Below are positions 30,242 through 60,579 of a stretch of DNA of 64,000 nucleotides, one piece after another (position 1 is the stretch's first letter; each line of letters starts with the position of its first letter). This DNA is from Heloderma charlesbogerti. Lineage: Eukaryota > Chordata > Lepidosauria > Squamata > Helodermatidae. The translations under genes and the position numbers were made by a program. The notes beneath the pieces were generated by a model, which ran no database searches, was not told the DNA's origin, and was given only the letters and a program-made list of their open reading frames with translations. The stretch lies in the NCBI GenBank assembly GCA_026122225.1, contig JANEZZ010000739.1:992001-1056000 (forward strand), in the 5' to 3' direction.

Positions 30242-30834
30242 TAGTGATGTATGAAAGCCACTTACCTGTGACGAAATTTGATTCGCAGTGGAGGGGAGGT
30301 GCTCCGTCCCTCCCCCCGAAATTCTGGCCAGGGGGGAGGCGCCCCGTCCCTCCCGCTGCGAATCCTGGCCGGCCAGGACTGCAAATGGTAGCTGCCACCG
30401 TTTGCGTCCCTGCAGTCAGCCGTGATAGGCTACGTAAATGTTTACGTAGCCTATCATGGCTGAGTTAAAAAAACAAACAAACTGCGCGTACGCAAATGGT
30501 GGCGCCCATGGGCGCCGCCATTTGCGTTCCTTATTTTGACACGTCTAGATTTATCTTTACGTAAATCTTTACGTAAATCTTTACGTAGCCTATCACGTTT
30601 TTTTTTAAAACTTGGAAATGGCAGCGGTGGCAGCTGGTCGGAAGACCGGCCGCTGCAGCTGCTGCCGCCGAACCGCTGCCGAACCACCACCGGAGCCGCC
30701 GCTGCCAGGGAGATTCGCCCAAGGTAAGTCCCATCCCCGGGGGTGGCAGACCGTTTCGCCACCGATTTTGGGGGGCTGAATGCGCTGGCATTCGGCCTCC
30801 CCGAGATTCATGGCGAAATTCTCTGACATCCCTA
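30242..30834 (+). mobile_element. Palindromic hAT-like MITE, copy 1
   Basis: 593 bp from tagtgatgt to ACATCCCTA. Two AT-type palindromes (centred near 30440 and 30570) and GC-type palindromes (gcgcccatgggcgc core) are present. Outward splice-donor matches are at both ends: 30260-30268 (minus, CAG/GTAAGT) and 30721-30729 (plus, AAG/GTAAGT). No clear target duplication is found. Confidence 0.85.
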
Positions 30835-32622
30835 GTTCTGTAGAGGCTAAGATTTATTCTTTGAGAGAGGGAATATCTGATTGAGATCTCATCTCAAGCT
30901 ATGCATGTAGCAGGTGTCCTTTGGCAAAAGCCATTCTTTCTTAACCCTAGGCTTCATTTATTATTTGAAACTAATAATAATAATACTAAGCTTTCTAGGC
31001 TACTGTAAGAGTGCAGCTCTTCTAATATGCTCAGTGTTGCTGTTGTTGTTGTTGGTGTGTGGTGGTGGTTTTATTTAAAAAGTCTTGTCATTCTAGGTTG
31101 GGGAGCTCTTTAATCCCTCGGCATGTTCTGAAGGCACATAAAGCCATCCTGCTGAAGCTACAGGGCTTTGGGTCTAGTCATTTAACAAAAGAAGAGCTGT
31201 AACGTATCAAACCAAGGGCCTACATAGTCCAGCTTTTTGCTCCCATAGTGGCCAACCTTACGCATATCAGAAGCTCATAGGCAGGGCATGAGTACAATAG
31301 CTCACTTTTATGTCATGTTCCCCAGCAACTGACACTTAGAGTCATATTGTTTTGTTTTGTTATCACTGTAAATTGTATAGGAAGGGCTCTGCTGGATCAG
31401 ACCCAAAGATTATCTTGTCCAGAATTCTGCTTCTGCAGTGTCCAACCAGATGCCTATGGGCATGACTGCAATAGAACCATCATGCTTTCATTTCCTAGCA
31501 GCTCATATTCAGAAGCACACTGCCTTTGATGCTAAGGATAAGATATAGCTGTAAAATAGTTCCATCCCACGTGGGACTTTATCCACCTCCAACCCGTTCT
31601 TCCAGATCTAGAACATTTGGTTAGAAACCTCAAATTACATGACACAGAGCCAGACCAATAGACCCATTTATTTTCATGTTAACAAAAATAAGGCAAGACA
31701 GCAAGCAAGGGTACAGTAACACAGTAAACCAAGCTACAAGCTGTCCATCGTGTGCCTCTGTAACTTGCATTGTAAACTGAAGCCCAGGGGGGTCTCTTGC
31801 ACCTTCTACTTGTCCAAGGAATCCCTCTCTGGCCCAGAGCAATGCAGCATCCAACTCCAATGGACGCACCCCTCCCTGGTCTCTTGACAAAGGCTTCAAA
31901 TCCCCCTTACAAGGGCTAGCTGGCCAAGGCAACGAGCTATTCAGCATGTACTCAACCTGCACACCTGAGCCTTGTTAGTAAGGGCCATGGATAGTTGGAA
32001 GGGAGTATTTGGTCCAAGTCCAACAGGACAGAAACTCCTCAAGAGAGAGGGTCCAATCCATTTCCGATCCCATTGCAAATGTCTAGGAGATTACTTGTAA
32101 CACCTAAATGACTTAGGGACTGATTATGTGAAGGACCTCTCCTGACATATTCATTCACCTTAGCATTAAGATCTGTTGTACAGGGTCTCATTGGGGTTCT
32201 GATTGCAGAGTTGTGATTTGCTGAGACATAGCAGAGTGCCTTATTAATCTCATATATGCATTTTTAGTTATTTGTTTGATTTGTGGCCCATCTTCCTACC
32301 AAGAGAATTTCAATCAAGGCAGTGTACCATAAGAGATAAAACCTTAATACAAACTCGCTTAGGCTGTTGAACTCACTGCCAAGGGATAGCAGCCTTCTCC
32401 CCTCTTTGTCCCTTTTTATTCTGACAGGTATGAGGCCTATTGGGCAGTAGAAGCTTCTTTACGATTCCCAAGGCCTTGATGGAATTTTATTGATCATCCC
32501 TCTCTTTTTTAAACTGTTATTTTAAAAAAGGTTTATTCATTCGATTCTTTAAAGAACATACATTCTTTATACACATTCAAGAGGTACACACTCTTCAAAT
32601 ACATACATACATACGTACATAC
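30835..32622. other. V2R gene 2 intron 5, LINE relics and LTR-like segment
   Basis: 30840-31560 and 32100-32530 align with gene 1 intron 5 (15130-15660 and 16680-17290), including old L2-type relics. 31630-32103 is absent from gene 1. It contains, on the minus strand, an AATAAA and a TGTTACAAG start, suggesting a degraded solo LTR. No gene. Confidence 0.45.
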
Positions 32623-33410
32623 TAGGGATGTACGAAAGTCACTTACCTTTTCGAAGGGTGACATTCGTGGTGGGGGGTGGCGCTCTGTACCTCCCCCTGA
32701 AATCCTACCCCAGCTGGCTCCGCTCCGCAGCAACTCTGCAGAGCCGCTGGCCGGGTGCATCCACACGGCAGCTCTGCAGATGCAAATGGCGGCTGGCGTA
32801 GCAGCCACCATTTGTGTCCCTTCACTGAGCCATGACAGGCTATGTAAATATTTACATAGCCTATCATGGCAAAACTGGGGATGCAAATGGTGGCCGCTAT
32901 GCCATTTGCATCCCCGCTTTTGCCCTGATAGCCGACATAAATATTTACATAGCCTATCACTGCTCAGCGAAGGGACGCAAATGCCGTAGCGGCTGCCATT
33001 TGTATCCCCGCTTTTGCCGTGATAGGCTACATAAATATTTACGTAGCCTATCACAGCAAAAGCGGGGATGCAAATGGCAGCTGCTACGCCATTTGCGTCC
33101 CTGCTCTGAGCCGTGATAGGCTACCTAGATACTTACGTAGCCTATCACAGCTTGCCAGGGGCGCAAATAGCGGCCGGCATAGCAGCCGCCATTTGCGGCC
33201 TCAGCCCAGCAGTGGCTGGAGCCACCGGAGCTGGAGCTGCTGCTACTGCCAGAGCCGCCACCGCCAGTGGATCCACCGCTGGAGCCGCAGCCAGGTAGGC
33301 TCCATTTCGCAGGGCTTTCGCGGGGTGGTGTGGCGAGTTGCTCTGTTCCGCCACGGATTCTGGGGGGCTGAATTCTGTGGGATCCATGGCAGAATTCTCT
33401 AACATCCCTA
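32623..33410 (+). mobile_element. Palindromic hAT-like MITE, copy 2
   Basis: 788 bp, TAGGGATGT to ACATCCCTA. The target duplication is gtacatac at the left; at the right gtacgtac is restored once the later solo LTR is discounted (7 of 8). Four AT-type palindromes lie between 32829 and 33150. A perfect donor is at 32641-32649 (minus), and a weaker GTAGGC one near 33290 (plus). Confidence 0.92.
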
Positions 33411-33411
33411 G

Positions 33412-33914
33412 TGTCAGGGTGGACACTGAGCCCATAGAATCCCAGAGTAGTTCTGATGCTGAGGAAGAGCAGTCGCTCCTTCGGGAGAGGAGCGCACTCC
33501 TTTTTTCCCAGGACCAACAGCTGATGGAGCTTCCTCCCACCCACATTCCTAGTTTAGAAAGCAGTCCAGGGAGTGACTCAGCACAAATAGCAGACTGGGG
33601 GGGATGCACGGCGCAGACGCAAAGAGCGGCGCCAAATGGTTCGCGCTCAAAGAACGGTTGCGCCCAAAGGATCCAAGGGAAAAGGGGAGGGATTCTCCCT
33701 AGTCCTTATATTCAGGGGTCTGCCAGTAATTGCCCTTCAAACGGGGACCAACTGTTCTAACTTAGGGCATAGGGATGCTGCTGCTCAGATCTAGTTGCTA
33801 CCTGTAGAGCTGTTAAGTTATAAAAGAAGAATAAAGCTTTGAAAATAATCCCTTTGTCTGTGTCTGGACTTGGCTACTGGATTAGACTGAGAGCCCTCCA
33901 AGGAGCCCTTGACA
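33412..33914 (+). repeat. Solo LTR (503 bp) inserted at the end of MITE copy 2
   Basis: It begins TGTCAGGG and ends CCCTTGACA, with perfect TGTCA/TGACA ends. It is flanked by a 5-bp duplication cctag at 33407-33411 and 33915-33919. An AATAAA at about 33830 fits the polyadenylation signal. There is no internal retroelement, so it is a recombined solo LTR, probably of a Gypsy-type or ERV element. The 140-codon frame across it is not a gene. Confidence 0.88.
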
Positions 33915-33985
33915 CCTAGTACGTACATACATACTTAATGAGTATGTGTTGTAATGGGGTTATCTGTGTACAGTATGCCTCCTAC

Positions 33986-36116: not shown

Positions 36117-36206
36117 CTGATTAAAGCTTTTATGCCACACAATTTGGTCATCATGAATGGTTAACTCTTTGCCTGGAGCAGCCTGGGGATCCAGTTGTCC
36201 AACTTG
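36117..36206 (-). pseudogene. V2R gene 2 exon 4, 3' half
   Basis: The CAG/GTGAGT donor and the last third of exon 4 (gcctggagcagcctggggat on plus). It stops abruptly at the VGRL point and is followed by an AT-rich tract. The missing 5' half is found inverted at 37249-37402, ending at the same codon. Confidence 0.88.
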
Positions 36207-36325: not shown

Positions 36326-36329
36326 TTGT

Positions 36330-38631: not shown

Positions 38632-39636
38632 TAGGGCTGTGCATGTACCCCCCGATTCAACTCATAAGCTGCCTTGGGGCTTTCGAGGTGGGCACGATTC
38701 AGCTCGGGCTGATTCAGGGCCCCCACGACCTGCCTCGGCCTATGAAGCTGAAGCGGGATTCGGACATCCAAATTCTGCTTAGGCCCCCTCAACAGGCTGT
38801 CCAGCCCCCAGCTTCTTACCTGGGCCCTTGTTCTGTGGTGGGGAGGGGTGCCACCACCAGGGGATCCTCTGCTGATGCTGCTGCCAGCACTGCTGGGGGA
38901 GCCACTGGGGACGGCGCTGCCAGCACTGCTGGGGAAACCATTGCCCATCAGAGTCCACCAACTGCCTGTTCTGCCCTCTTTGCAAGGAGGGAAGAACAGG
39001 TGATTGGCAGGAGGCACTGGCCATCTGTCAAGCATGCATGGCCTCCTTCCCTGCACAGAAGGGGACCACGCAAATTTGACAGGCACGAGGGCAAGAGTCA
39101 CCCTCCAACTGCGCTCTCTCCCTTCCTTGGAAGGAGGGGAGGGTGCCCGGTTGGAGGCCGAGTCCTGCCTATGTTCAAGCCTTCACTGGTTCCTTGGTTG
39201 TGAGGAGCCTGTGAAGGCCTGAGTGAGGCCAGCAGCGGCAGCTTGCAATGAGGCCGAGCTGCTGCTGCCATTGCCACAGGGGGAGCTGCTGCTACCGCCA
39301 GCTCCTAGGCCCTCTGGATGGGCGCTGACAGCCATCTTGTTCTGGGGAAAGGGGGAAGCCATTTTTAATAACAGCTCCTCCCATTCTCTGGAACAAGATG
39401 GCTGTCAGCATGCATCCAGAGGAACAGGTAAGGAGCTGGGGGCTGGGCGGCGGCAGCAGTGGCTGTGGTATGGCGGCCGGGCCTTCGGATCACTCCGAAG
39501 TGCACTGAAGTTATTCGGAGTGATCCAAGCTGCTTTGGGCCGCTTCATGCTCCCTCTGCCTCAACTCGGAGGCAGCCAAAGTGGCCCTCTTCAATTCAGA
39601 GTTCAGGCTTCCTGGCTGAAGCAATGCACAGCCCTA
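38632..39636. mobile_element. hAT-like MITE, second family (TAGGGCTGTGCA ends)
   Basis: 1005 bp with perfect terminal TAGGGCTGTGCA/TGCACAGCCCTA. The target duplication is gtttttac at 38624-38631 against ctttttac at 39637-39644 (7 of 8). The interior is GC-rich with internal inverted repeats (ccttgcaaggaggg; agatggctgtcag and its complement). It has several frames, none with recognisable protein similarity. Confidence 0.85.
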
Positions 39637-43764: not shown

Positions 43765-43935
43765 AATAGAATCATAGAATCATACAGTTGGAAGGGGCCT
43801 ACAAGGGCATCGAGTCCAACCCCCTGCTCAATGCAGGAAGCCTGATGCCCTGGTGGTCTCCCATCCAAGTACTAACCAGGGGTGATGCTGCTTAGCTTCC
43901 GAGATCAGATGAGATCGGGCACATCCAGCCCTTTG
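43765..43935 (-). mobile_element. 5S-rRNA-derived SINE with CR1 tail, second copy
   Basis: Reverse orientation of the copy at 23588: tail atagaatcatagaatcata, then CR1-like ggaaggggcctacaag, then 5S-like ctcccatccaagtactaacc and gcttagcttccgagatcaga. Confidence 0.92.
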
Positions 43936-45309: not shown

Positions 45310-45364
45310 GAGGCTGAAGGTCAGTCAAACAGAGGCAATGAAACCAAGGCCTACAACAAGAAGA

Positions 45365-45396
<32 letters not shown>

Positions 45397-46919
45397 AGAG
45401 ACTCCTTGCTGCATGTCACTGAAACCCAAGTATGCCATGAAGACCCACGGACTTGCCAGGTATGCTGTCTCCCAGATGTGACTGAAGTGAGCCTGCACTC
45501 ATAAAGCCCACTGACAGGTATCCCTTTCTTCTCATCCATATGGGAACAAATGATACTGCCAAGCAGAGCAACAAAGAAATCATGTCAGACTTTGGGAAGG
45601 AAACTCAAGAACTTTGGGGCCCAGATAGTTTTCTCATCTATCCTTCCAGTAGTTAGAAGAGGGATAGAAAGGGAAAGAAAAATACTCCAGGTGAATGACT
45701 GGCTACGAAGGTGGTGCCGACGTGAGAGCTTTGGATTCTGGGGCCACGAGCTATACTTCCTGGAAGATGGACTGTTGGCAAGGGATGGGTTGCTAGGGAT
45801 GTACAAAAGTCACTTACCTTTCTGCGGATTATATTGATGGTGGCGGGGGAGGCGTTCTGGCCGTGGAGGGCTCTGGGGAAAAAACCCAACAACTGCATAT
45901 GCAAATGGCGGCTATGGCCGCTGCCATTTGCGTTCCTTATTTTTAGCTGTCTTAATCTACGTAAATATTTACGTAGACTATGACGGCAAAAATAAAGGGG
46001 AACGCAAATAGCGTAGCGGGCGCTATTTGCATCCCTTTTTGATTCACCGTTTTAGGCTACGTAACCATTTACGTAGGCTAAAACGGCGAATCAAAAAGGG
46101 ACGCAAATAGCGCCCGCTACGCTATTTGCGTTCTCCTTTATTTTCGCCCTCATAGTCTACGTAAAAATTTACATAGACTAAGGTGGCCAAAAATAAGGAA
46201 TGCAAATGGTGGCGGCCATTTGTGTACATGGTTTTTTTTTTAAACCCAGCCATGATAGGCTATGTAAATCTTTACGTAGCCTATCACGTCATTTTGTTTG
46301 GTTTGTTTTGTTTTTTTTACAAGACTGCAAATGGCGGTGGCGGCAGCCGGTCGGAAGACCAGCCGCTGCCGCTGCCGAAGTCGCCGCTGGAGCCATCGCC
46401 GCCACCCGGAAGATCCACCCCAGGTAAGTCTCATCACAGGGGGGGTCCATGGGGGGGGTGGCAGGCCATTCCGCCACGGAGTTCGGGGGGCCGAATGCAC
46501 TGGCCTTCGGTCTCACCGAGATCCGTGGTGGAATTCTGTGACATCCCTATGGGTTGCACCTCACAAAGGCTGGGAAGAATGTGTTTGGCCACAGCATGAA
46601 GAACTTCATCAGGAGGGCTTTAAATGGAATCCTACAGGGGAGGGAGATGTAAAGTTGGGGGTAACAATGGATGAAGGCTCATGCACCACAACGGAGAGAA
46701 CAGCTCTAATAGTGCCCAATCATAGTCTTCAAAACAATGTAGGAAGAAAGCCAGACTATAAATCACATGGTCTATGATGTCTATATACTAATGCCCAGAG
46801 TATGGGAAACAAACAGAACAAACTTGAACTCTTAATATGGGAGGGAAATTATGACTTGATAGGTGTAACTAAAACTTGGTGGGATGACTCCCATGACTGC
46901 AATACAGCAATTGAAGGAT
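45310..46919 (+). mobile_element. CR1-like LINE, 5' half with ORF1, split by MITE
   Basis: 45400-45790 is a decayed ORF1 resembling CR1 esterase-type ORF1: RDSLL block near 45400, then MGTNDT-like bases at 45540, then QIVFSSILPVVRRG and ESFGFWGHELYF. After the MITE at 45794-46549 the sequence continues to the start of the endonuclease frame (ELLIWEGNYDLIGV and TWWDDSHDC at 46830-46905). A second MITE truncates it at 46920. A (AGT)n tract at 45365-45395 precedes it. Confidence 0.75.
45794..46549 (+). mobile_element. Palindromic hAT-like MITE, copy 3
   Basis: 756 bp with a perfect 8-bp duplication tgggttgc at both sides (45786-45793; 46550-46557). Four AT-type palindromes between 45945 and 46290, separated by GC-type ones. 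Perfect outward donors at 45812-45820 (minus, AAG/GTAAGT) and 46421-46429 (plus, CAG/GTAAGT). Confidence 0.95.
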
Positions 46920-47295
46920 TAGGGATGGCGGAGAATTCCGCCATGGACTCCAATGAGGCCGGATTCTAAAGAATCTGGCCCCTCAGAGTCCGTGGCGGAA
47001 TGGACCACCCACCTCCGCCACCCTGCAAAGTTTCCCTGGAATGGATCCTACCTGCCACCAGCCGGGTCCGGTCCGTCCGCTGCCGTCTGCTGCCGGTCTG
47101 CAGAAGCAAATGGCATCTGGCGTAGTGGACGCTATTTATGTCCCTTCTCTTTACTGTGATAGGCTACATAAATCTTTACATAGCCTATCATGGCAAAGAG
47201 CGGGGACTCAAATGGCGTCTGGCATAGTGGCAAAGAGTGGGGATGGCAAAGAGCGGGGATGGCAAAGAGCGGGGACTCAAATGGCATCTGGCGTA
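46920..47295 (-). mobile_element. Palindromic hAT-like MITE, truncated copy
   Basis: Starts TAGGGATGG with gagaattccgcc, the 3' end of the family in reverse. One AT-type palindrome lies at about 47155-47197. It is cut off at 47295, where the V2R inverted repeat begins. A short tandem (gcaaagagcggggatg) lies at 47230-47275. Confidence 0.8.
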
Positions 47296-47296
47296 C

Positions 47297-47803
47297 CCAA
47301 AACAAGGGTAATCCCAATGTTGGTTGAGACAGGCCTTTGTAAAGTTAACTGTAGAAATTTCAATTGCTAGTTGTCTCTTTGTTTATATTCTCTTTTAATT
47401 GAGGTCTATCAGTTTCTAAGTAGCATCTTACTCAATAACAATGCTGGAGAAACTGCACATTTTGAGGGAAAAGGAGAACTGGTTACACAGTGTGATGTTA
47501 CAAACTGGATAATATTCCCCAATGCCACATTGGTTAGAGTAAAAGTTGGAATGCTGGATCCCCAGGCTTCCCCAGGCAAGGAGTTAACCATTAATGATGA
47601 CTAAATCGTCTGGCATAAAAGCTTCAACCAGGTATGAAATGTAGTTTCTCCAGCATTGTTATTGAGTAAGATGCTACTTAGAAAGTGATGGACCTCGATT
47701 AAAAGAGAATATGAGCAAAGAGACAACTAGCAATTGAAATTTTTACAGTTAACTTTACAAAGGCCTGTCTCAACCAACATTTGGATTACCCTTGTTTTGG
47801 ACA
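47297..47803. repeat. Inverted repeat made from V2R exon 4 and its intron
   Basis: The left arm, 47297-47450, and the right arm, about 47645-47803, are nearly perfect reverse complements over about 155 bp (tgttggttgagacaggcctt; attgctagttgtctctttg). Both come from intron 3 and the start of exon 4. The loop holds the rest of exon 4. Confidence 0.92.
47404..47631 (+). pseudogene. V2R exon 4, full length but inverted, one stop
   Basis: 228 bp between an AG acceptor and a CAG/GTATGA donor on the plus strand, opposite to the gene. The frame matches gene 1 (ILLNNNAGETAHFE; VTNWIIFPNATLVRVKVG) but has a TAA near 47602 in place of a glutamine codon. Confidence 0.9.
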
Positions 47804-48047
47804 CCAGTTGTGATGATTTTATATTTCTAGTTGCCATTTCCTTCCAGTTCATTTCGTTTATCACCCCTGTTTTCTCAGGAGTTAGGTACCCCTGCAAGTT
47901 TGATCAGGATTCCTTCCATACCTTCAACTAAGTAATTGATTAAAATATTGAAGAAGAACATGGGCCCAATGTAGAGCTGAGCAGCACTGAACCAAAACCT
48001 CTTTCCACTTTGATGAGGAACCAGGTTGGGGGTATGGTTTTCTAATG
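47804..48047. other. V2R gene 2 intron 2 remnant with CR1 relic
   Basis: 47870-47985 is the old CR1 relic also seen at 21240-21383. It is followed directly by the sequence after the MITE of gene 1 (empty site gagcagcactgaacc). About 1.2 kb of intron and part of exon 2 are deleted at about 48045. Confidence 0.75.
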
Positions 48048-48213
48048 AGTGGAAAGCAGGTTCAGGGTGGCCTTAAAGGTCATCCTTGCCGCATAATAGC
48101 TGTTGAGGATGTGGAAGCCGAGAGAGAGATTTGGTAAGATCTGGGGATTTTCATTGATCTCTTTTACAGCAAATGCCAAGGCCAGGACATGCTGGTAGTT
48201 CTTAGGCACCGAA
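48048..48213 (-). pseudogene. V2R gene 2 exon 2, 3'-truncated
   Basis: The acceptor (cttattccag) and the first 55 or so codons match gene 1 (tggccttaaaggtcatcctt; gccaaggccaggacatgctg on plus). The 3' part and donor are lost in the deletion. Confidence 0.9.
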
Positions 48214-48719
48214 CTGGAATAAGAGTTACAGGCTCTTTAACCAAAAAACGACGGCAGCATACATTTCTACTCTTCATCATCAAGTACCTGCATACTTCCA
48301 AGACTGAGGTGTAGCTTGAAATCATATAACACAATGAAGGAAAATAATAGAGGGAAGTTTTTAAAAAGCAAGACATTTGAAGCAGATATTTCTCTGAAGA
48401 GCTATGTACTCAAAATATTTTGGGAGAATTCTAGTGCTTAGTAAACTTGCATGCATGTATTGGGGTCAGCTCCTTTGCAAACCGAGACCCAGTCCACATG
48501 ATTAAAAGAGCCCAGCATGGGTTATTATAGAATTATTATTATTATTTAATTATTTTGATTGAATTACTATTATTATTGAATTATATTATTATTATTGAAT
48601 TATTATTGTTTAAGCTTAGTTAAGCCATGGTGGGCTACAGCGCCTGCTCGTGCGTGCCAGGCAGCATTTGAATATTCAGTGTCTGGCCATGGTTCCCACA
48701 ACACTTGCCGTGTTGTGAG
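48214..48719. other. V2R gene 2 intron 1, start
   Basis: No gene. An (ATT)n microsatellite lies at 48535-48610. Confidence 0.55.
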
Positions 48720-49506
48720 TAGGGATGTACGAAAGTCACTTACCTTTTCGAAGGGTGATATTCGCGGTGGGGGGGAGGCGCTCCGTCCCTCCCCCCGAAA
48801 TTCTCTCCGGCTGGCTCCACTCTGTGGAGATTCCGCAGAGCCGCCGGCCGGGGCCGCCCGCAGCCGGACATCCAGCTGCTGGGCAGCCTGCAGGGACACA
48901 AATGGTGGCTGCCATAGCCGCTGCCATTTGCGTCCCTGTATTTTGCCATGATAGGCTACGTAAATATTTATGTAGGCTATTATGGCAAAAAAAAAAAAAG
49001 GGAACGCAAATGGCAGCCACTACATCATTTGCGTTCCCTTTCCCCCCCCGCCGTAATAGCCTATGTAAATATTTACGTAGGCTATTATGGCAAAAAAAAA
49101 GGGGAACACAAATGGCGTAGTGGCTGCCATTTGCGTTCCCTTTTTTTTTGCCGGAATAGCCTATGTAAATATTTACATAGGCTAAAACGGCAAAAAAAAA
49201 AGGGAACACAATTGGCAGCTACCATAGCCACCGCCATTTGCGTTCCCTTAGTTAAGCCGTGATAGGCTACATAAGTATTTATGTAGCCTATCACGGCTAT
49301 ATGGAGGAAGCGAATGGCGGCTGCAGACGCGGCCGCCATTCGCAGGTCAGCGTGGATGGCAGCAGGTAGATGATCCATTCCAGGCCCATTTTGCCTGGAA
49401 TGGGTGGGGGGGACAGGGGGCTTCATTTCACCACGGATTTCGGGGGGCCGAATGCACTGGCATTCGGCCTCACTGAGATCTGTGGCGGAATTCTCTGACA
49501 TCCCTA
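48720..49506 (+). mobile_element. Palindromic hAT-like MITE, copy 4
   Basis: 787 bp with perfect duplication gttgtgag (48712-48719; 49507-49514). Four AT-type palindromes between 48945 and 49295. Outward donors: 48738-48746 minus (AAG/GTAAGT, perfect) and about 49363 plus (CAG/GTAGAT). Confidence 0.96.
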
Positions 49507-49622
49507 GTTGTGAGAACCCAGATCCATGGTCTGTTGTATTACGTGAGGGTCATTTAAGTCACACACAATCCCTGCCACCCGAATTCACACAACATGACAA
49601 GCCTCAGCCAGAGTCCAGACAC

Positions 49623-50372
49623 TAGGGATGTATGAAAGTCATTTACCTTTTAGAAGGGTGACATTCGCAGTGGGGGGAGGCGCTCTGTCCCTCCCCCCGA
49701 AATTCTCTCTGGCTGGCTCCGCTCCACGGAGATTCCATGGAGCTGCTGGCCGGGGCCGCCCGCAGCCGGACATCCGGCCGCTGGGCAGCCTGCAGGGATG
49801 CAAATGGTGGCTGCCGTAGCTGCCGCCATTTGCGTCCCTGTATTTTGCCATGATAGGCTATGTAAATATTTACGTAGCCTATCACTGCAAAAAACAAAAC
49901 AAAACAGCAGATGCAAATGGCGGCGGCTACGGCGGCCGCCATTTGCGTCCCCTTTTTTCCCCCCTAATAGCCTACGTAAATATTTATGTAGGCTAAAATG
50001 GCAAAAAAAAGGGAATGCAAATGGCGGCCGCCGTAGCCGCCGCCATTTGCGTTCCCTTAGTTAAGCCGTGATAGGCTATGTAAATACTTACGTAGCCTAT
50101 CACAGCTTCCGCAGGGATGCAAATGGTGTCCCTGCGTTAGCCATGATAGGCTACGTAAGTATTTACGTAGTCAATCACGGCTACATGGAAGAAGTGAATG
50201 GCGGCCGCAGATGTGGCCGCCATTCGCAAGTCAGTGTGGACGGCAGCAGGTAGGTGCTCCATTTCGCGGGGTGGGGGGCAGGATGGCTTCGTTCCACCTC
50301 AGATTTCAGGGGGCCGAATGCACTGGCATTTGGCCTCACCGAGATCCGTGGTGGAATTCTCTGACATCCCTA
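49623..50372 (+). mobile_element. Palindromic hAT-like MITE, copy 5
   Basis: 750 bp with perfect duplication ccagacac (49615-49622; 50373-50380). Four AT-type palindromes. Ends are closely similar to copy 4, only 117 bp away. The donors are slightly decayed (AAG/GTAAAT minus; CAG/GTAGGT plus). Confidence 0.96.
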
Positions 50373-50667
50373 CCAGACACTGAATATTTAAGAAGGTCAC
50401 TTGCATGTGCTCACTGTGGCTTAAGCCACAGTGGGCTGTTCAACTGTGTGAACAGACCCACAAACATAACTACAAAACAGTAACAAAAATGACAACCCCC
50501 CCCCCCCCAAGAAATAGCCCATATCTAAGTTCTGGTGTGCTCATTAGCTTTTTAAAAGCAAAGTCTAAGAAGACAGGGCACATAGATCAAGACTTAGTAT
50601 ATGCTTATCATTGAGAATCTTTGTACCAAACATTTCTGTGAAACAGGAAATATGCAATGCCATGAAG

Positions 50668-51546
50668 CAGGGATGTACGAAGGTTCCTCCACGGATCTCG
50701 GGGAGGCCGAATGCCAGCGCATTCGGCCCCCCAAAATCGGTGACGGAACGGCCTGCCACCCCCCCGGGATGCGATTTACCTGGGGCGGACCTTCCTGGCA
50801 GTGGCGGATGCAGCGGTGGCTGCGGCGGTGGTTCGGCGGCGGCGGCTGTGGCAGCCAGTCTTCTGACCGGCTGCCACCGCCACCATTTCCAGGTTTAAAA
50901 AAACAAAAAAACAAAAAAAGTGATAGGCTACACAAATCTTTACGTAGCCTATCATGGCTAGATTTTAAAAAAACACTGTGATAGGCTACGTAAATGTTTA
51001 CGTAGCCTATTACGGCTGATTAAAAAAAAAAAAGTGTGTATGCAAATGGCGGCGCCCATGGGCGCCGCCATTTGCATTCCTTATTTTGGCACGTCTTAGT
51101 CTACGTAAACATTTACGTACACTGAGACGGTGAAAATAAGGGGAATGCAAATAGCGTAGTGTCTACGCTATTTGCGTTCCCCTTATTTTCACCGTCTTAG
51201 TCTACGTAAATGTTTACGTAGATTAAGACGTGCCAAAAGAAGGAACGCAAATGGCGGCGCCCATGGGCGCCGCCATTTGCGTGCGTGCGTTTTTTTTTTT
51301 TCATCAGCCGTGATCGGCCGCCGCCATTTGCATCCCTGCTAGCCAGCGGCTGGATGTCTGGCTGCTGGTGGAGCCGGCGGGCGGCTCTGCAGAATCACTG
51401 CGGAGCATAGCTGGCCGGCCAGGATTCCAGGGGGGGAGGAATGGAGCGCCTCCCCCCCGGTGAGGATTCCAGGGGGAGGGATGAAACGCCTCCCCCCGCA
51501 CCATCAGCATAATCCCTGAAAGGTAAGTACCTTTCGTACATCCCTA
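50668..51546 (-). mobile_element. Palindromic hAT-like MITE, copy 6
   Basis: 879 bp in reverse orientation with perfect duplication ccatgaag (50660-50667; 51547-51554). Here the first base is C (CAGGGATGT), a frequent hAT terminus. Four AT-type palindromes. Between them is a perfect GC palindrome around gcgcccatgggcgc, twice. A perfect donor at 51530-51538 plus; CAG/GTAAAT at the left end, minus. Confidence 0.96.
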
Positions 51547-52249
51547 CCATGAAGTCAAACAACTGTTAATGGATCATTTATATTGCTTGACACCAGAGAC
51601 CCATTGATCATATTGAAGGGCATCTATCCTAAAAATATTCAATGAGGGAAACTTCAACGAGGGAAAACTGTGAACTGCCCAGAGAGCTTCAGTTATTGGG
51701 TGTATAAAAATGTAATAAATAAATAAATAACTACTGAAAGTTGGAAGTTCAAAGGGGAGCATTAGGAGCTTCCATAAACTCATCTACATTTGAAGGCAAT
51801 GCCCCAGATATGTCAAGACAGTGGATGGTGCCTGAGAGCCAATTCACAAATGACTTAAAAAAAACATACACCCTTATGATATTGTAGTTGTGCACTTCTT
51901 AGTGTAAAGGTTTGAATATGTGTGGGCAAGTCTGTGTCTGCAAATGCCTGCATCATAGACATTCCCTGATTAGGAAGACAGAACTGCTTGTGGGTTCCTC
52001 TCAAATGTGCATCATCTGTCAACAATAAACCCATGCATGTTCCTCTGTAATGTGCAAATTAGCCCAGGCAAATTACAGGGGTGAAAAGAATAGGAGGAAT
52101 GAAACACAGTGGTATTTCTAAAATATTATACTATGACATTATATTTAAAAAATAATGAGAAGACTGGAAGTGCTTGAGAGGAGGCAGAGATGTAGGAAAA
52201 ACATTACAGGGAATGAGAAGTGATGTGTCAAATACAAAATATGTGCACA

Positions 52250-52505
52250 ATCCACCATTTATTTATTTATTACATTTATATCCCGCTTTTTTTCCTCCAA
52301 GGAACTCAAGGTGGCATACATAATCCTCCTCCTCCTCCTCCATTTTATCCTCACAACAACAACCCTGTGAGGTAGGTTGGACTGAGAGTATGTGACTGGC
52401 CCAAAGTCACCCAGTGAGCTTCCATGGCTAAGTGGAGACTAGAAACCGGATCTCCCGACTCCCAGTCCAGCACTCTAGCCACTACACCACAGTGACTCAC
52501 TATGT
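52250..52505 (-). mobile_element. MIR-like (CORE) SINE
   Basis: Reverse orientation. ctctagccactacaccacag is the A-box end, tgactggcccaaagtcaccc the core, and cctcacaacaacaaccctgt the 3' part. Old and diverged. Confidence 0.6.
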
Positions 52506-52689
52506 TTTTTTCTGCAGAAACCAAGACCAGACTTCCCCAACCTGGTTTCCACTATATATTTTGGATTTCAACTCCCATCAGGCCCAGCCAGCATGGCAAC
52601 TGGTTAGGAATGCCATTTGCCATACCCCAGATATGACAATACCCCAGATAGGTCAGAACAGTGAATGGTGCCAAGTAATTCACAAATTA

Positions 52690-53035
52690 GGGGCCGCAGT
52701 GGCTTAGTGGTTAAGACGCTGAACTGCAGACTGGAAGGTCGGCAGGTCAGCAGTTCGAGACCCGAGTGCTGCGTGATGGAGTGAGCTCCTGTCTTCAGTC
52801 CCAGCTTCTGCCAACCTAGCAGTTCGAAAGCAAGAAATTGCAAGTAGATAAATAGGTACCGCCTTGGCGGGAAAGGTAACAGCGTTCCGTGCACCTCGGT
52901 GTTCAGTCATGCCGGCCACATGACCACGGAAGCATCTTCGGACAGCGCTGGCTCTTCGGCTTAGAAACGGGGATGAGCACCGCACCCTAGAGTCGGACAC
53001 GACTGGTTGGGGACACCTTTACCTTTTTACCTTTT
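52690..53035 (+). mobile_element. Sauria-type SINE, complete
   Basis: 346 bp flanked by 14-bp duplications taattcacaaatta (52676-52689; 53036-53049). The tRNA-like head has A-box tggcttagtggtta and B-box agttcgagacc. The tail is agtcggacacgactggttgg, shared with Bov-B LINEs. It marks a squamate genome. Confidence 0.94.
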
Positions 53036-53454
53036 TAATTCACAAATTACTTTTAAAACTCCTATACCCCTATGATATTTTACCTGTCCACTTCATAATG
53101 TAAAAGTATAAATATGTGTGGAAAAGACCATGCTTGCAAATCCCTGCATCATACACATTCTCTTATTAGGAAGTTAGATTTGCTTTTGGGTTCCTCTCAC
53201 ATGTGCTTTAAGCTTCAGCAATAAACCCAAGCGTGTCCCTGTATAATGTAGAAATAGCCGGGTCTATTACGGGGATGAAAATTTAGCAGCAACCGTATCG
53301 CTGCTAAACAATTAAACATGGTAGTATTTCTAAAATAGAATAATAAGAAATTACTTTTTTTTTTAGAAAATGAGAAGACTGGAAGTACATGAGAAGGGAC
53401 TGAGATGTAGGGAAAGGATGACAGGGAATGAGGAGTGGTGCTTCAAAAACCAAA

Positions 53455-53585
53455 TATGGGCTCTAGACATTTTGGACTTTGATTCCCATTAGTGCCAGCC
53501 AGCAGAGGTCATGGTTAGGAATTCTGGGACTTGTAGTCCAAAACAGCTGGAGGGCACCTGGTCAGGGAAGGCTGCCCTAGAGAAA
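53455..53585. mobile_element. Palindromic repeat, orthologous to 24112-24225
   Basis: ttggactttgattcccatta paired with attctgggacttgtagtccaa; same intron position as in gene 1. Confidence 0.6.
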
Positions 53586-54249
53586 TGCTCATGATTGATT
53601 AATTCCGATGCACCCTGTGGAGGAAAACTCATGCTGGCTTGTACCCAGTGAGATAATGTCCTGTTTTTCATATAATTCTAATCCATGGTTTAGTTAACCC
53701 ATGGGTTTTTGAAGTCGTTGTGAAGTGCCAACTCAGCTGCATGAAAAAAAAGGTTTGTTAACCATGAACAACCCAGAAAGAGAACCCATGGTTTGTCTTT
53801 ATGTTGTGAGCTCCAGGTTGTTTAAAGCATGGATTGTTATTACATGTGAGGCGAGAGCTGCGAGTTGTTCACAGGTTCTTGAATGAGGCAAAAGAGCTGA
53901 TGGGCGAGAGTGGTAAAAAAAAAACCCTCAGCCACTGTACATACCGGTACTACTACACCACACAGGGAGGGAGCAGATGAGTGAGGATGGAAACAAAACT
54001 CTCACAGATTGAGAAAACAAACCACAGAGTTTTCAATCATCTGCCAGACAACCCCTGGGTAGGACAGCATTCCATGGGTTACATCAACCATTGGTTAGTG
54101 TTATGCACAAACTAGGTCAAAGGGGGGAAAAAAAAGATTACCAAGCTCAAATATTGCTAGAATTCCACTTTTGCCCCACAAATAACTAAGGAAATTATTA
54201 CTGAAGCACAGTGATTCATGTTCTTAGTATTATGACCTGAACATATCAC

Positions 54250-54281
<32 letters not shown>

Positions 54282-54355
54282 GGAGGAGGAGGAGGAGGAG
54301 GAGGAGGAGAAGAAGAAGAAGAAGAAGAAGAAGAAGACGAAGAAGAAGAAGAAGA
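54250..54355. repeat. (GA)n, (GGA)n and (GAA)n microsatellite beside exon 1
   Basis: Three motifs in succession. The position matches the GA tract of gene 1 at 24445-24510, next to the exon 1 donor. Confidence 0.95.
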
Positions 54356-54368
54356 AATTATGCCCTAC

Positions 54369-55230
54369 ATAGATTCATCATGCAACATCTGTGCTGGCTG
54401 TTGGATGAAAGAAATATCATCATAGAGGAAGACGACCTGCGAAACAATCCCACTGATGACAAGGTCACCTTGCTGGAAAAATTTATGAGGGATACAGATG
54501 TACAAATTCCCTTACCTGGAGTCCGCGGGGGGGGGGGTCTACAGGGCAGGAGGCGATCCATTCCTCCCCCCCAGAATCCTTGCTGGCTGTCTCCACTCTG
54601 AGGTGAGTCCGTGGAGCCGCCGGCTGGCTCCATTCCGCAAGTGATACGGCCGCCATTGCCGTGCCGTATCACTGCTGAGGAGAAACAGGAAGTGATCCGG
54701 ACACAAGTGGCATCCGCTACACTGTTTGCGTTCCTGTTTCTTCTCGCGATAAGCTATGTGTCTGTATTTATGTAGATATTTACGTAGCCTATCGTGTGAA
54801 AAAACAGGGACGCAAATGGCCATTTGCATCCCTGTTTTTTCATGTGATAGGCTATGTAAATATCTACGTAAATACAGACGCGTAATCTATTGAGAGGAAA
54901 AACAGGGACGCAAATGGTGTTGCGGATGCCATTTGCATCTGGATCACTTCCCTAACGGAGCCACCAGGAGGGAGGATTTGGTCTGCGTGGGTCTAGGAGG
55001 TGGAGGTGAGTACATCTGTTCCTCCACGGACTCCAGGGGGGCTGAATTCAATGGAATTCAGCCTCATTTGAGTCCGTGGCAGATTCCGCGGACATCCCTA
55101 ATGTGGGAGAGGATCATCATATGTAGTGCATTTAATAGAACATGTGTTTCAAACAATATGACATAGCAGTAGAAGCAGGAACACCAATATGATCATCCTG
55201 CTGAGAAAACATTTTCTCCAAAATTCAATT
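54369..55230 (-). pseudogene. V2R gene 2 exon 1, split by a MITE
   Basis: The 3' part, 54369-54492, reads QGDLVISGIVSQVVFLYDD and QQPAQMLHDE to a CTAT/GTAGGG donor. The signal-peptide part, about 55101-55230, lies beyond the MITE. The insertion point falls in the codons after the leucine-rich signal. Confidence 0.9.
54493..55100 (-). mobile_element. Palindromic hAT-like MITE, copy 7, inside exon 1
   Basis: 608 bp with duplication atgaggga against atgtggga (7 of 8). The left terminus is tacagatgtac, the right ACATCCCTA. Two AT-type palindromes with an extended core (tatgtagatatttacgtag). Donors: CAG/GTAAGG minus near 54511-54518 and GAG/GTGAGT plus at 55003-55011. Orientation is uncertain because the ends have diverged. 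Confidence 0.88.
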
Positions 55231-55347
55231 CCCATTTTTCACTGACAGCTTTTTATCTGTCTGTATTATTAGTTTTGCTGTGGCCTCCCTTCAATTGTGT
55301 ATGATTTCATTGCTATGCTGCTACTGCTTGGCATGTTGGGTGATCTG
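55231..55347. other. 5' flank of V2R gene 2
   Basis: Continues the homology to 24778 onward, then is interrupted by MITE copy 8. Confidence 0.55.
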
Positions 55348-56173
55348 TAGGGATGTCAGAGAATTCGGCCACGGATCTCAGTGAAACCGAACGCCAGTGC
55401 ATTCGGCATTCGGCATTCGGAATGAAGCCCCCCGCCCAACCACCCTGCGAAAGGCGCGTGAAACAGAGCACTTACCTGGTGCCGTTCGCGCTGCTTTGCG
55501 AATGGCGGCCATATCTGCGGCCGCCATTCGCTTCCCCATTTAGGCTGTGATAGGCTATGTAAATACTTACGTAGCCTATCATGGCTAATGCAGGGACGCC
55601 ATTTGCGTCCCTGCAGAGGCCGTGATAGGCTTTGTAAGTATTTACGTAGCCTATCACGGCAAAAAAAGGGAACGCAAATGGCGGCCACCATAGCTGCCAC
55701 CATTTGCGCCTCTGTTTTTTTGCTGTGATAGGCTACGTAAATATTTACGTAGCCTATCACAGCAAAAAAAGGGAATGCAAATGGCAGCTGCCGTAGCCGC
55801 CACCATTTGCGTTCCTGTTTTTTTTGCCCTGATAGGCTACGTAAATATTTACGTAGCCTATCATGGTAAAAAAACAGGGGTGCAAATGGCGTAGCGGCTG
55901 CCATTTGCACCCCTGTCTTTTGCTGTGATAGGCTACGTAAATATTTACGTAACCTATCATGGCCAAAAACATGAATGCAAATGGCGGCCGCCACGGCCAC
56001 TGCCATTTGCGTCTGCAGGATCCAGACTCCTGCGAATGCACCCGGCTGGCGGCTCCGCGGAGTTGCCGCAGAGCGGAGCCAGCCAGGTTAGGATTTCGGG
56101 GGGAGGTGCGGAGCGCCTCCCCTCCACTGTGAATCACTCCTGCGAAAAGGTAAGTGACCTTCGTACATCCCTA
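55348..56173 (-). mobile_element. Palindromic hAT-like MITE, copy 8 (clearest palindrome chain)
   Basis: 826 bp with perfect duplication gtgatctg (55340-55347; 56174-56181). Five AT-type palindromes are centred at about 55565, 55640, 55743, 55847 and 55942. The third (55722-55763) is a perfect 42-bp palindrome. GC-type palindromes fill the gaps. Perfect outward donors at 55470-55478 (minus, CAG/GTAAGT) and 56157-56165 (plus, AAG/GTAAGT). Confidence 0.96.
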
Positions 56174-57190
56174 GTGATCTGTTTGCCAGAACCATGATCT
56201 TATACTTAATAAATGTCTCAGTGTTCATCAGTGTCCCAGTACAGTATATTTTCTTTATCTCCTAACGTCATGCATTAAGACTGAGTAACGATTATAAGCT
56301 TCTTTTTTTTTTTACCATCATTGTATGTAGCTGTTCAGCTATAGGCAACAAAACTTTGCAGTGGTGTAGAAAGAAAAAAGTGTAATCTTGAGGACACCCT
56401 ATCATATTTTAAATTATGTAACTTGAAACTTCAAATAGCAGTAATGAAGAATGAGGCAAGATGATTGCAAATATGCTACAAAACATTTGCTCAGAGGAAT
56501 GCAAGGTACATTATATTAGGGTAAGGCAATTACTCCATAACTCATTAATAAGGTCCCATTTTTCAGAGTAAGAAAGGGGGAAATGCCAGAATAACTGGGC
56601 AAGCAGAAGGTATGACGAAGAAAGGGACTCACAGTATACTTTTTTTTGGCTTAGAATTCATGTAGAATCAGTTCTTGGAAGCATACATAAAATATAAAAG
56701 GGGATTATTCATACACATGAATGGAAGTCCCCTGGTTATGCCTAAATTGAGAATTGAATAACAGGTGGAGTTCTATAGCTTTTTTGAGATGCTGATTTTT
56801 GACTTTGCCATCAGGCTCTGGAAATCCATTGAATAACAGTATGGAAACCAATAATTTAGATAATGATATGGGAGATGATCACTTCTCCGATGTGTTAGTC
56901 TTTGAAGTTGCATCAGATGTGACCAGGATCCTACACTTACTATTCTCTTCTATAAAGCATTAAAAAAATATGATGTAACTGGCACAGAGACTGGGGTTCC
57001 TCTGCCCTGAGCTAGATTTAAGTGGATGAACTTAACTCACTCTTTGAAGGCTGACGTTAAATGCAGCGTCACATATGGGGAATTTGATACTCAGCTTTAT
57101 CAGATTGATGTACAGCTCTTTTATCAGATCACTTCCAACTACTTTTTGTCCTGTTGATGTTTATTAAGAGTGTTAAGTTGTTTCAAATTT
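56174..57190. other. 5' flank of V2R gene 2, continued
   Basis: Homologous to 24870-25880 of gene 1. No further features. Confidence 0.55.
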
Positions 57191-59243
57191 TGACACTCTG
57201 TGTTTGTGTGTTGCGGGGGGCAGGCGGGTAGGCGGGCAGGGGCCCGTTATTCTGGGATATTCTGGGCCAGGTTCTCATGGCCAATGTAGCTTAGTACTGT
57301 GAAACCTTAGATTTCAAGGCAGAGTCCTTTCCTACCTAGAAATGCCAGAGACCTCAGTGGGCAGGTGAGGGACCAAATAATCCATTGGACCCACAGTGTG
57401 GGCACACACAGAGGCATTCACAGAAGCTTAAAGGCATGTTAACTGAGCGTTTTTAAGGCAGATGGCTTTATGAACCTGTCATAAGTGGTTTGTTCTTTAT
57501 ATATATATAAGAGCAGCATAGATAGCATAAGATAGGCATAGGATGAGATAGCTAAGTGAACCAAACATTAGGAGGCCTGATAAAAGATTGGTTCTGTGGG
57601 CCTAGGCAGGAGTGGATTTTGAGAAGTGCTTGTTTGGGTAATAGTGTCATTTCTACTTTGGAAAAGAGAGAAATTTAAGAATAGCAGGCTGCAGTTGATG
57701 AAACTTTTTTTTTATAAGTTACCGACCCCAGGTTAAAGAGACAGGATGCTTAAGGAAAAATTGGGAACTTTCTCTGGAATTGTCAAAGGCATTAACAATG
57801 ACTTTTGGAGATGTGTGAGACACTTAGATTTAGAGTAAGGGGCTTGGATGGAGCTAGACCACCTTATAATAACCAATAAGCTTAAAACATAACAGAGCCC
57901 ATGTAATATATTAGATATATGGCTGGCATAAGATTAGAGGGTATAGACATTTTACCCTGTGGGTACCCTATGGGTGAGGCCCTGCCTTCAATTTTGAGTC
58001 TAAAGGTGCAATCCTATGGGTCTTTAGATGGGAAAAGCCCTACAACTCCCAGCTTCCCCCAGCAAGCCATGGTACATGCTGGGAGTTGTAGGACTTTTTT
58101 CTGTCTAAACACCCATAAGATCCCACCTATAGGATTTTTTGATTTTTGAAAATGGAACTCCTGATTACTTTTTTAAAAAAAGATTCCTGGGAGAATAAAA
58201 TGAAAATTGCAGGGATAGTTACCTCTTCTGAAGTGATGAATTCTGCCAAATTTCATAATGATAGTAGCAAATTAATTGTGTGAAAGAGCATTGACATTTT
58301 GAGGGGGACGTGCTTATCACCCTATGCTCTTTGTGGACCATTGTTCTGAAAATGATAGATATCCCAGATGTTCCCCTAAGTAAGTAAACAACCTAGTTTC
58401 AAAGGGATAGGTGCAGTGGTTCATGTGGAAGGGGAGCTCTCCAATTTTGGGGTGGGGTGGGTGGGGGAACTGATTCACTTCAACTTCACTCACCCCCCCT
58501 CTGTGTTTTGTGACCTGGGATTAGAAGGTGGACCTGCCCATCATTCAACTGCAATCCCTCCCTCCTTTCCCTCCACCACTTAGAGAAGGGGTGTCAAACC
58601 TCTTTCAGCTCAAGTGCTGAATCCCATTTTGGAGAAGGTCTTGGGGGCTGCATTCCAGTCATGGTGGTGGTGGTGGTGGTGGTGTGTGTGTGTGCGGGCA
58701 CAAAAGTTCCAGCATATTTTAGCATAAAGCTCTTAATTTCAGAAAGGGCTTTAAACCTTTAAACCCCTTTAGAGAGTGGGAGAAATTGCACAAAAGCTGA
58801 AACCACCAATTGATTGCTGGGTCAGAGGAAAGGGGGTGAGGCCAGGGGTAGGGTACCAGGCCATCTGATGAACCCCTGAAGTCCAGATTCTGGACTTATA
58901 CAACCTCATACAGGTTGGCAATACCTTTCTGGCATGTGCCATTAGCCCTGAGGCTTTTGGAATCTGAATTATCCCCCTCCTATCTGTGCATTTCATTGGA
59001 TTTTCCACTCACACCTTTGCTGCCCTCATCTATATACTTCAGCATTCTGCCTGGATGGCTGATGAACTTTCTAGAACATTTGGTCTTTTTCCTCAGTACA
59101 GAAGTGATCAGTACAGATCTTTCCTCAAAATGGCTGCTGCTCTTCCACTACCCATTTCTCTTACCTCTTAAGAGCTGTGCTGTGCTCCATTGATGCACAT
59201 GTATTGACAGAGTCAAGAGAGAACCCAAATTGGCACCTGCATT
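57191..59243. other. Unassigned, one hairpin repeat
   Basis: No gene. A short hairpin repeat at 58004-58136 has arms gccctacaactcccagctt and tgctgggagttgtaggactt. A (GGT)n(GT)n tract lies at 58663-58695. Confidence 0.5.
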
Positions 59244-59981
59244 TAGGGATGTACGAATCACTTACCTGTTCTGGTCAGGGCATCCGCTGGGGGAGGGAGG
59301 TGCTCCCCCCTCCCCCCCGGAATCCTGGCTGGCCGGCTCCACTCCACAGCCAAGCCGCGGAGCCGCCGGCCGGCTCCGGCTGCCTGCAGCCAGACATCCG
59401 GCTGCTGGGCAGCCCTGCAGGGATGCAAATGGCGGGTGTCGTAGCCGTCGTCATTTGCGTCCCTGCAGTGAGCCATGATAGGCTATGTAAATATTTACGT
59501 AGCCTATCACGGCATGGGGAAAACCCCAGCATGCGCAAATGGTGGTAGCTGCTGCCATTTGCGTACGCTGGGTTTTTTTCCCCCTTGCCATGATGGGCTA
59601 CGTAAATATTTACGTAGCCTATCATGGCAGGGGGAAGAAAACCTCAGCGTACGCAAATGGCGGTAGCTGCCGCTATTGCGTATGCTGGGTCCCCCCCCAC
59701 CGTGATAGGCTACATAAATACTTACGTAGCCTATCACGGCCTCCGCAGGGACGCAAATGGTGTCCCTGCGTTAGCCGTGATAGGCTACGTAAGTATTTAC
59801 GTAGCCTATCATGGCTGAAGAAGGAGGAAGCAAATGGCAGCCACAGGACGGCCGCCATTCGCACAGCAGCGTGGACGGGAGCAGGAAGTGCTCCGTTTCA
59901 CGCGCCTTTCGTGGGTTGGGGGGCTGGGGCACTGGCATTCGGCCTCACCGAGATCTGTCGCAGAATTCTCTGACATCCCTA
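59244..59981 (+). mobile_element. Palindromic hAT-like MITE, copy 9
   Basis: 738 bp with duplication cctgcatt against cctgcgtt (7 of 8). Four 42-bp AT-type palindromes at 59472-59513, 59587-59628, 59699-59740 and 59774-59815. A perfect outward donor lies at 59260-59268 (minus, CAG/GTAAGT). The plus-strand donor has decayed to CAG/GAAGTG. Confidence 0.95.
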
Positions 59982-60454
59982 CCTGCGTTGTGTCGGCAAT
60001 AAGTGTATGTGCAAAGTGCACTGGAGAACATGTTCCCAATTAGAGTTATTGTTCAGATAAGGATGACTGAAGAGAGAGAAATGTGTGTGGAGGTTTTATG
60101 TGAACATGTAAAACCTTAATTTTGGAATGACCTGAACTTTGAAAAAAAAGAAAGAAAATCCTTTTAAAATGACCTTGCCGCTCCAGGACATTTTTCTTTC
60201 TTTAAAACAGCATTGCTTTAAACAAATAGTTTATCACTCAGTCACACCTAAGACAGCCTTCTTTTGGAAAGCCCCTAGGAAGAGGAAGTGTTTTGGCTGA
60301 AAGTAAACAGAGATGGAGGATTTCAATTTAAAAAGAACACCCACAAAGGCGGTGAGCACAATTCATTTTTTTTTTAAACTTACATATTTATTATTGGAAT
60401 ATACTACACTGCGTTTTTATTTATGAAAATTTCGTGACTCTTTGCAGATGATGA

Positions 60455-60579
60455 AAAAAAGCCGCATGACTGCTGGCTCTGCAGGACCTCATGGTGCCGT
60501 TCCGCAGAGGATTCCGTGGCACAGACTGAAGGGAATTTGATCCCATTTCAGTCCATGGCAGAATTCTCTGACATCCCTA
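60455..60579 (+). mobile_element. Palindromic hAT-like MITE, 3' fragment
   Basis: The last 125 bp only, ending agaattctctgacatcccta. The preceding 59982-60454 shows nothing recognisable. Confidence 0.75.

Follow-up and report, generated by a model that had tools for sequence, protein, structure and literature searches.

Palindrome-chain elements in the window

The window analysed here comprises 64,000 nucleotides of the 2.3-Gb genome of Heloderma charlesbogerti (G000:C644:992001-1056000, contigs being numbered with C) and contains a family of short transposable elements, hereafter chain elements, whose interiors are built of successive palindromes. The original prediction, made from the letters of the window alone, had proposed nine copies and all nine were located where it had placed them. 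Seven are on the forward strand, at 30242..30834 (593 bp), 32623..33410 (788 bp), 45794..46549 (756 bp), 48720..49506 (787 bp), 49623..50372 (750 bp), 54493..55100 (608 bp, divergent) and 59244..59981 (738 bp), while those at 50668..51546 (879 bp) and 55348..56173 (826 bp) are inverted relative to them (minus strand). A fragment with A and B palindromes (described below) but no ends was found at 47097..47220, and a 28-bp remnant of a right end, of the GAATTCTCTGACATCCCTA type, at about 60552..60579 (+).

Of the ends said to be shared, the right one (ACATCCCTA, read on the forward strand of the window) was present in all nine copies, whereas the left one was exactly TAGGGATGT in six only; the variants are TAGTGATGT (30242), CAGGGATGT (50668) and TACAGATGT (54493), again read on the forward strand. 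Eight copies had been credited with 8-bp target duplications. We counted seven: the five perfect ones were recovered (45794, TGGGTTGC; 48720, GTTGTGAG; 49623, CCAGACAC; 50668, CCATGAAG; 55348, GTGATCTG), and two rather than three carried a single mismatch (54493 and 59244). No duplication flanked the copies at 30242 (7/8 positions mismatched) and 32623 (6/8), and when lengths from 4 to 12 bp were tried on the window copies none but 8 bp fitted. In the element at 50668-51546 and in that of locus L009 the right tip resembles the left (TTCGTACATCCCTA/G), giving a longer terminal inverted repeat, perhaps the trace of an exchange between ends.

The family extends far beyond the window. The tip pattern TAGGGATGTN{0,1}A had 192,964 matches in the genome and the reversed pattern 25,124. 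The former count takes in same-tip older relatives and points to tens of thousands of elements, those relatives included. Further elements were taken from loci around the first-listed tips on contig C1. The duplications are not chance matches between copies: 12 of 15 exact-end pairs on C1, chosen for the closeness of their two tips, had no more than two mismatches, the remaining three having 5-6. When no more than one mismatch was allowed in the duplication, 39 pairs were returned, among them six window chain elements and an element of a separate family at 38632; as this was a filter, it yields no success rate. T at position 2 of the duplication (equivalent to A at position 7) occurred in half of cases with both strands counted (n = 39), the target preference of Ac-type elements being nTnnnnAn. 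For the comparisons below, a sample of 35 elements was formed by removing the 38632 element and six older relatives and adding the three window copies that had not passed the filter (two without a duplication). At locus L014 the inner element, which has no duplication, replaces the outer, and L042 was kept despite another insertion inside it. Median identity to the nearest sampled copy was 79% (best local match). With lengths of 593-879 bp in the window, no coding capacity (frames are not conserved) and a high copy number, the chain elements fit the description of miniature inverted-repeat transposable elements (MITEs).

The older relatives (L018, L026, L027, L037 and L044, together with L011) are AT-rich elements of about 350-395 bp with tips of the same type and no A/B chain; L018 appears by eye to hold a separate run of short palindromes, of the GCACATTAGCACAAGTGCAC type. 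At L014 a chain element is nested in an older same-tip element with a perfect 8-bp duplication, and this nesting gives the relative order of the two.

In each chain element a core of alternating palindromes lies between a left and a right domain. Palindromes of kind A span about 40 bp around TACGTAAATATTTACGTA and those of kind B about 45-55 bp around GCAAATGGCGGC...GCCGCCATTTGC. The number of A units per element ranged from 1 to 6 among the 35, four being the commonest (15/35); the copy at 55348 has five. Stems made up 15-45% of each window copy compared to about 0% in ten mononucleotide shuffles of each, and the 55348 copy folded 24.7 s.d. better than 20 dinucleotide shuffles. The A-palindrome pattern had zero matches in viral contigs.

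The description of the interior as a chain, not a single stem, suits some copies only. When a gapless single-axis match of at least 200 bp at 80% identity or more was counted as a large palindrome, 12/35 elements carried one (222-384 bp) and 23/35 fell below the threshold. Four of the nine window copies belong to the former group, at 32623 (222 bp, 86%), 45794 (306 bp, 88%), 50668 (278 bp, 91%) and 54493 (264 bp, 83%); these large palindromes (222-306 bp, 83-91% identity) are mostly composed of smaller ones. In the other five window copies no gapless palindrome exceeded 142 bp. When gaps were allowed, several elements had two or more nearly equal mirror axes. Two kinds of element thus exist, with hierarchical palindromes and with tandem chains. 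The mirror regions are internal and the left and right domains gave no reported inverted match to each other, so that the long terminal inverted repeats reaching the tips that define foldback elements were not seen.

A large hAT element and the origin of the chain elements

Membership of the hAT superfamily, first proposed from the ends and the 8-bp duplication, is now further supported by a same-genome element that has related ends and a hAT transposase frame. When the genome was searched with the hAT dimerisation model, 871 candidates turned up, 150 of them as scored matches; seven matched loci were examined first, then loci on five further contigs. The search recovered a 9,387-bp element, presumed to be autonomous, at G000:C235:52195-61581 (the putative parent), flanked on both sides by CACAACAC, a perfect 8-bp duplication. 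This copy and that on C1330, which represent the main family, are homologous up to an exact TAGGGATGTCAGAGAAATTCTCTC, and the left tip of the C235 copy is the point at which their homology starts. Its left end, TAGGGATGTCAGAGAA, is identical to the right end of the miniature elements. Its right end, CGAAAGGTAAGTGACTTTCATCCACCCCAA, corresponds to the left end of the miniature copy at 48720 (81% over 84 columns, E 1.6e-16). The miniature tips, TAGGGATGT...ACATCCCTA, are of the short terminal inverted repeat type of hAT elements, (C/T)A..T(A/G). Left tips were recognised in two large copies and right tips in four, C2157 and C1725 having right ends of the parent type and C1725 having ACATCCCTA itself.

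The transposase frame of the putative parent is open over 879 codons, with the first ATG at codon 158, and contains Dimer_Tnp_hAT (1.3e-16) and zf-BED (6.8e-5) domains. Its sequence matched Hermes in PDB, the best stretch being residues 770-835. The closest annotated relatives were four squamate proteins with 39-42% identity, from Sceloporus, Phrynocephalus, Sphaerodactylus and Eublepharis, one of which is named ZBED4-like. A-like and B-like palindromes occur in the last 400 bp, with fewer units in C235 than in C1330, C2157 and C1725. The chain architecture is unusual, as had been suggested, yet both kinds of palindrome are already present in the 3' subterminal region of the putative parent, and in 12/35 elements the chain is folded into one large palindrome. 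Near the 5' end is a 97-bp tandem array of 4.5 copies (L076:3044-3539), whose copy number apparently varies among copies of the element. An occurrence of ACATCCCTA just 3' of the transposase stop was considered as the end of the element and rejected, as the sequence continues alike in several copies and the motif is internal. Likewise, a palindrome chain at the C2113 locus belongs to an inserted miniature element, not to the large one; inserted miniature elements are also present at L070.

A second frame near the 3' end of the putative parent (parent 8012-8362, G000:C235 60206-60556, (-)) has 117 codons and a Myb/SANT-like domain (2.6e-9). It stays open at three loci beside C235 (L079, L083 and L085), with 94% identity in C1330, 77% in C2113 and 62% in C356, the last of which is otherwise little similar to the putative parent in the stretches read. 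At two further loci the first 17 and 26 residues of the frame are present before the examined stretch stops. None of 12 candidates among 5.8 billion proteins was a relative, in a search limited to shared 5-residue words, and no paper joining a hAT transposase with a Myb/SANT accessory protein was found in open-access full texts. The pairing of a transposase with a Myb/SANT protein is a trait of PIF/Harbinger elements and is not known to be one of hAT elements, and a conserved partner of this kind in a hAT would extend the Harbinger-type two-protein design to another superfamily.

Taken together, the chain elements very probably are non-autonomous hAT elements derived from this 9.4-kb BED/ZBED-like hAT or a close relative and moved in trans, with a chain that came from the 3' array of the parent, was folded back and afterwards gained and lost units. 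The starting point would be a 3' subterminal region with a short array of alternating palindromes, such as the large copies possess in varying unit number. As the miniature form arose, a segment of it would have been copied back on itself, most likely when gap repair was aborted and the template switched in inverted orientation, so that small palindromes came to make up a large one. A unit of roughly 100 bp may afterwards have been gained and lost in tandem, generating the many-axis chains; this last step needs nothing more than changes in unit number, which are seen in the large copies as well. The shared ends suggest that a transposase of the BED/ZBED-like hAT type mobilises the miniature elements in trans.

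The clearest trace of the folding is in L017, whose core matches the putative parent first inverted (9179-9004, 76%, E 1e-31) and then direct (9004-9172, 76%, E 2e-28), the two stretches being separated by 30 bp; the left domain of L017 matches the right end of the putative parent. L022 and the 45794 copy repeat the inverted-plus-direct pattern in shorter stretches. Derivation from a larger element, as in MITEs, is indicated by homology at both tips and by the inverted pair in the core of 3/7 printed elements, the open frame suggesting that the parent was autonomous. Among 46 blemished pairs in the small palindromes of ten elements, the mirror unit shared the blemish in 23 and did not in 19, with 4 matching on neither side; the shared blemishes show that already blemished palindromes were duplicated as an inverted block.

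Several observations weigh against this origin or against the C235 copy as its source. Only the three elements named above, of the seven printed, had the inverted-plus-direct pair; 48720 and L012 matched the putative parent solely in the tip or in A units, and 54493 and L026 did not match it. The C235 copy shares only about 20 bp with the right domain of the miniature elements and its right tip is degenerate (CCACCCCAA), which makes it a relative and not the direct progenitor, and no closer large subfamily was found among the large loci examined. A parent-type right end was not seen in the stretches examined of C2113, C356 and C3212, nor was the left tip recognised in any of the five further large loci. 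C1330, the second copy with both ends, has no target duplication, and within the C235 copy the 8-mer CACAACAC is present a further time, so that the one perfect duplication is modest evidence. The position of the first ATG, at codon 158, also bears on the presumed activity of the transposase. Replication slippage, moreover, could leave marks like those of gap repair. An altogether different origin, as a self-standing foldback or hairpin-replicating element and not a hAT derivative, would account for inverted repeats forming large parts of the interior; it is highly improbable given the 8-bp duplications, the hAT-type tips and the existence of a large hAT whose subterminal palindromes are of the same kinds. 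Derivation from a large hAT would illustrate the making of a miniature transposon through back-folding of its parent's subterminal array, with parent-type element, duplicated segment and derivative all within one genome.

Outward motifs near the ends and the possible roles of the palindromes

A motif resembling a splice donor, [ACG]AGGT[AG][AG]G, points outwards near the left end of 31/35 elements, near the right end of 29/35 and at both ends of 26/35, where dinucleotide shuffles, which ignore descent, predicted 0.1, 1.6 and 0.005 elements, respectively. In the inward direction it was found in 1/35 (left) and 0/35 (right), and the interiors contained one occurrence in 19,239 bp. For the looser AGGT[AG], outward occurrences numbered 33/35 at each end and inward ones 6/35 (left) and 5/35 (right). 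Where present, the motif lies 22-25 bp from the tip at the left end (minus strand) and 93-174 bp from the tip at the right end (plus strand). Because the copies share descent, the conservation of the motif carries more weight than the shuffle odds. On the right, no 8-mer of the last 200 bp, the terminal 20 bp excepted, is as well conserved as AGGTAAGT, and the sequence neighbouring it differs widely among subfamilies; on the left, the conservation of CTTACCT ranks behind that of the tip and a G run. The sites had been chosen as best matches; substitutions in them mostly put A or C at -3 and A or G at +3/+4, as in donors.

In the window, both motifs occur in the copies at 30242 (30260-30268 (-) and 30721-30729 (+)), 32623 (32641-32649 (-) and 33292-33300 (+)), 45794 (45812-45820 (-) and 46421-46429 (+)), 54493 (54510-54518 (-) and 55003-55011 (+)) and the inverted 55348 (56147-56155 (+) and 55470-55478 (-)). 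The 48720 copy has a left motif at 48738-48746 (-) and a weak right form, CAGGTAGAT, at 49363-49371 (+). In the 49623 copy the left motif (49641-49649 (-)) has one change and the right one is at 50247-50255 (+), and the inverted 50668 copy has a motif at 51520-51528 (+) and a weak one, CAGGTAAAT, at 50774-50782 (-). The left motif of the 59244 copy is at 59260-59268 (-) and its right one is destroyed by a 1-bp gap (CAGG-AAGT).

The putative parent on C235 has the outward motif at its right tip but lacks it on the left; at the right tip of C1725 the motif takes a weaker form. Among the six older relatives with the same tips the motif was present in 0/6 on the left and 1/6 on the right. The separate hAT-like element at 38632-39636 has TAGGGCTGTGCA tips, an 8-bp duplication with one mismatch and two outward donor motifs; tips of the TAGGGCTGTGCA type had 1,730 matches in the genome, some places being doubly counted, against 3 in the control. 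This family was considered as a replicate of the paired-donor layout and rejected, since a donor occurred within 400 bp at just 1/12 further tips.

CpG content was also distinctive. Chain elements had a mean observed/expected ratio (o/e) of 0.88, compared with 0.235 for the window outside them, and the C235 parent copy had 1.49 in its first 250 bp, 1.10 in its last 800 bp and 0.43 overall. The palindromes may resemble YY1-like (AAATGGCGGC), GATA, forkhead and octamer sites.

Two readings of the conserved motif are about equally likely, and we hold both tentatively. The chain elements may act as two-way mobile start cassettes, with a CpG-rich, YY1-like palindromic promoter core and an outward 5' splice donor at each end, in which internal starts would be spliced into flanking host DNA and the donors would persist by aiding the spread or openness of the element. 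The frequency of paired outward motifs, their rarity inwards and in the interior, the conservation of the motif on the right and its high rank on the left, the donor-like changes and the CpG content are all consistent with this. Weighing on the other side are the inward occurrences of the looser motif, the C235 parent copy lacking a left donor and the weaker form of C1725, the failure of the layout in the second family, and the relatedness of the copies, by which the shuffle odds are overstated. The putative first exons, moreover, keep no frame (open in 21/28 and 17/30, with mixed phases), and the frame of the 55348 copy had no match among 5.8 billion proteins; protein-coding first exons were rejected on the first of these grounds. 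Alternatively, AGGTAAGT could be a subterminal binding motif, inverted at both ends, for the transposase, the Myb-like protein or a host factor, ZEB/Snail-type E-box proteins being candidates for the last. hAT elements commonly carry subterminal repeats needed by the transposase, and Tol2 reportedly has a repetitive subterminal region. A single outward site per end, found also at the parent's right tip, would suit a binding motif; the asymmetric and variable distances from the two tips, the lack of a site at the left end of the C235 parent copy and its absence from both ends of 5/6 older same-tip relatives would not.

The palindromes themselves might be kept by selection for one-strand RNA hairpins, microRNA-like or structural. 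The very stable fold of the 55348 copy fits such a role, as do 46 sub-threshold Rfam matches at 45000-60500 of the window, of which 45 were to microRNA precursors. None of the 46 reached the gathering score of its family, however, and the A palindromes showed G.T mismatches (74) no more often than A.C (81), although selection on one RNA strand should have produced an excess of the former. With no G.T excess and no over-threshold Rfam match inside copies, we regard RNA hairpin selection as improbable and rejected it. A broader proposal, that a two-gene hAT with CpG-island ends gave rise to miniatures with promoter-like ends, a folded-back palindromic binding-site array and a selected outward donor at each end, and hence to a natural two-way gene-trap cassette, is rather unlikely. 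Were it true, tens of thousands of copies would supply the genome with alternative promoters and first exons that read into host genes to either side. Even by itself, use of the outward donors would let so abundant a DNA transposon readily furnish new promoters and first exons.

Relation to known elements and other features of the window

The chain elements share with the Ac/ZBED-like branch of hAT an 8-bp nTnnnnAn-like duplication, short TAGGG tips and a partner transposase with a BED finger and a hAT dimerisation domain; unlike in that branch, the partner here is 9.4 kb long, with a Myb/SANT-like gene and a palindromic 3' subterminal array. PIF/Harbinger-type elements are alike in combining a transposase with a Myb/SANT protein and differ in that the transposase here is of hAT type and the duplication is 8 bp long. 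Tam3 of Antirrhinum is a hAT whose hairpin-forming end regions reportedly influence gap repair; being a plant element, its resemblance to the chain elements is a lead only.

Mar of Drosophila willistoni comprises short non-coding hAT MITEs described as internal-deletion derivatives of a full-length hAT of the Buster group (PMC3517528). The chain elements are also short, non-coding and referred to a full-length hAT, and differ in their palindrome chain and outward donors, neither of which is mentioned for Mar in the parts of that account drawn on here (PMC3517528). Muta1 of Aedes, a type-2 foldback Mutator-like element, has 12-bp subterminal repeats in 145-bp terminal inverted repeats (PMC5225508). 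Like the chain elements, it has arrays of subterminal repeats and a palindromic motif at the terminus, and the number of repeats varies in non-autonomous copies (PMC5225508); it differs in its superfamily, the repeats here being alternating palindromes of about 40-55 bp in a short-tipped hAT. Nuwa families have genes for a transposase and for a DNA-binding protein of the Myb/SANT type (PMC12730594). A search of open-access full texts for the tip sequence returned no transposon paper among the matches listed, judged by title and abstract. The hAT superfamily and hAT miniature elements as a kind are already known. To our knowledge, a hierarchical palindrome core with a traceable parent segment, paired outward donors and a Myb/SANT partner are unusual.

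The remainder of the window contains features of other kinds. Three frames, at 14143-15093 (-), 19466-20395 (-) and 62799-63725 (-), resemble type-2 vomeronasal receptors by eye, which would place the window in or near a cluster of such genes. Positions 663-5789 hold an endogenous retrovirus whose pol-like and env-like frames are long, and LINE-like frames are also present, both features being likewise recognised by eye. Two matches to 5S rRNA exceeded the threshold, at 23573-23689 (+) and 43833-43944 (-), which we take to be probably 5S-derived SINEs.

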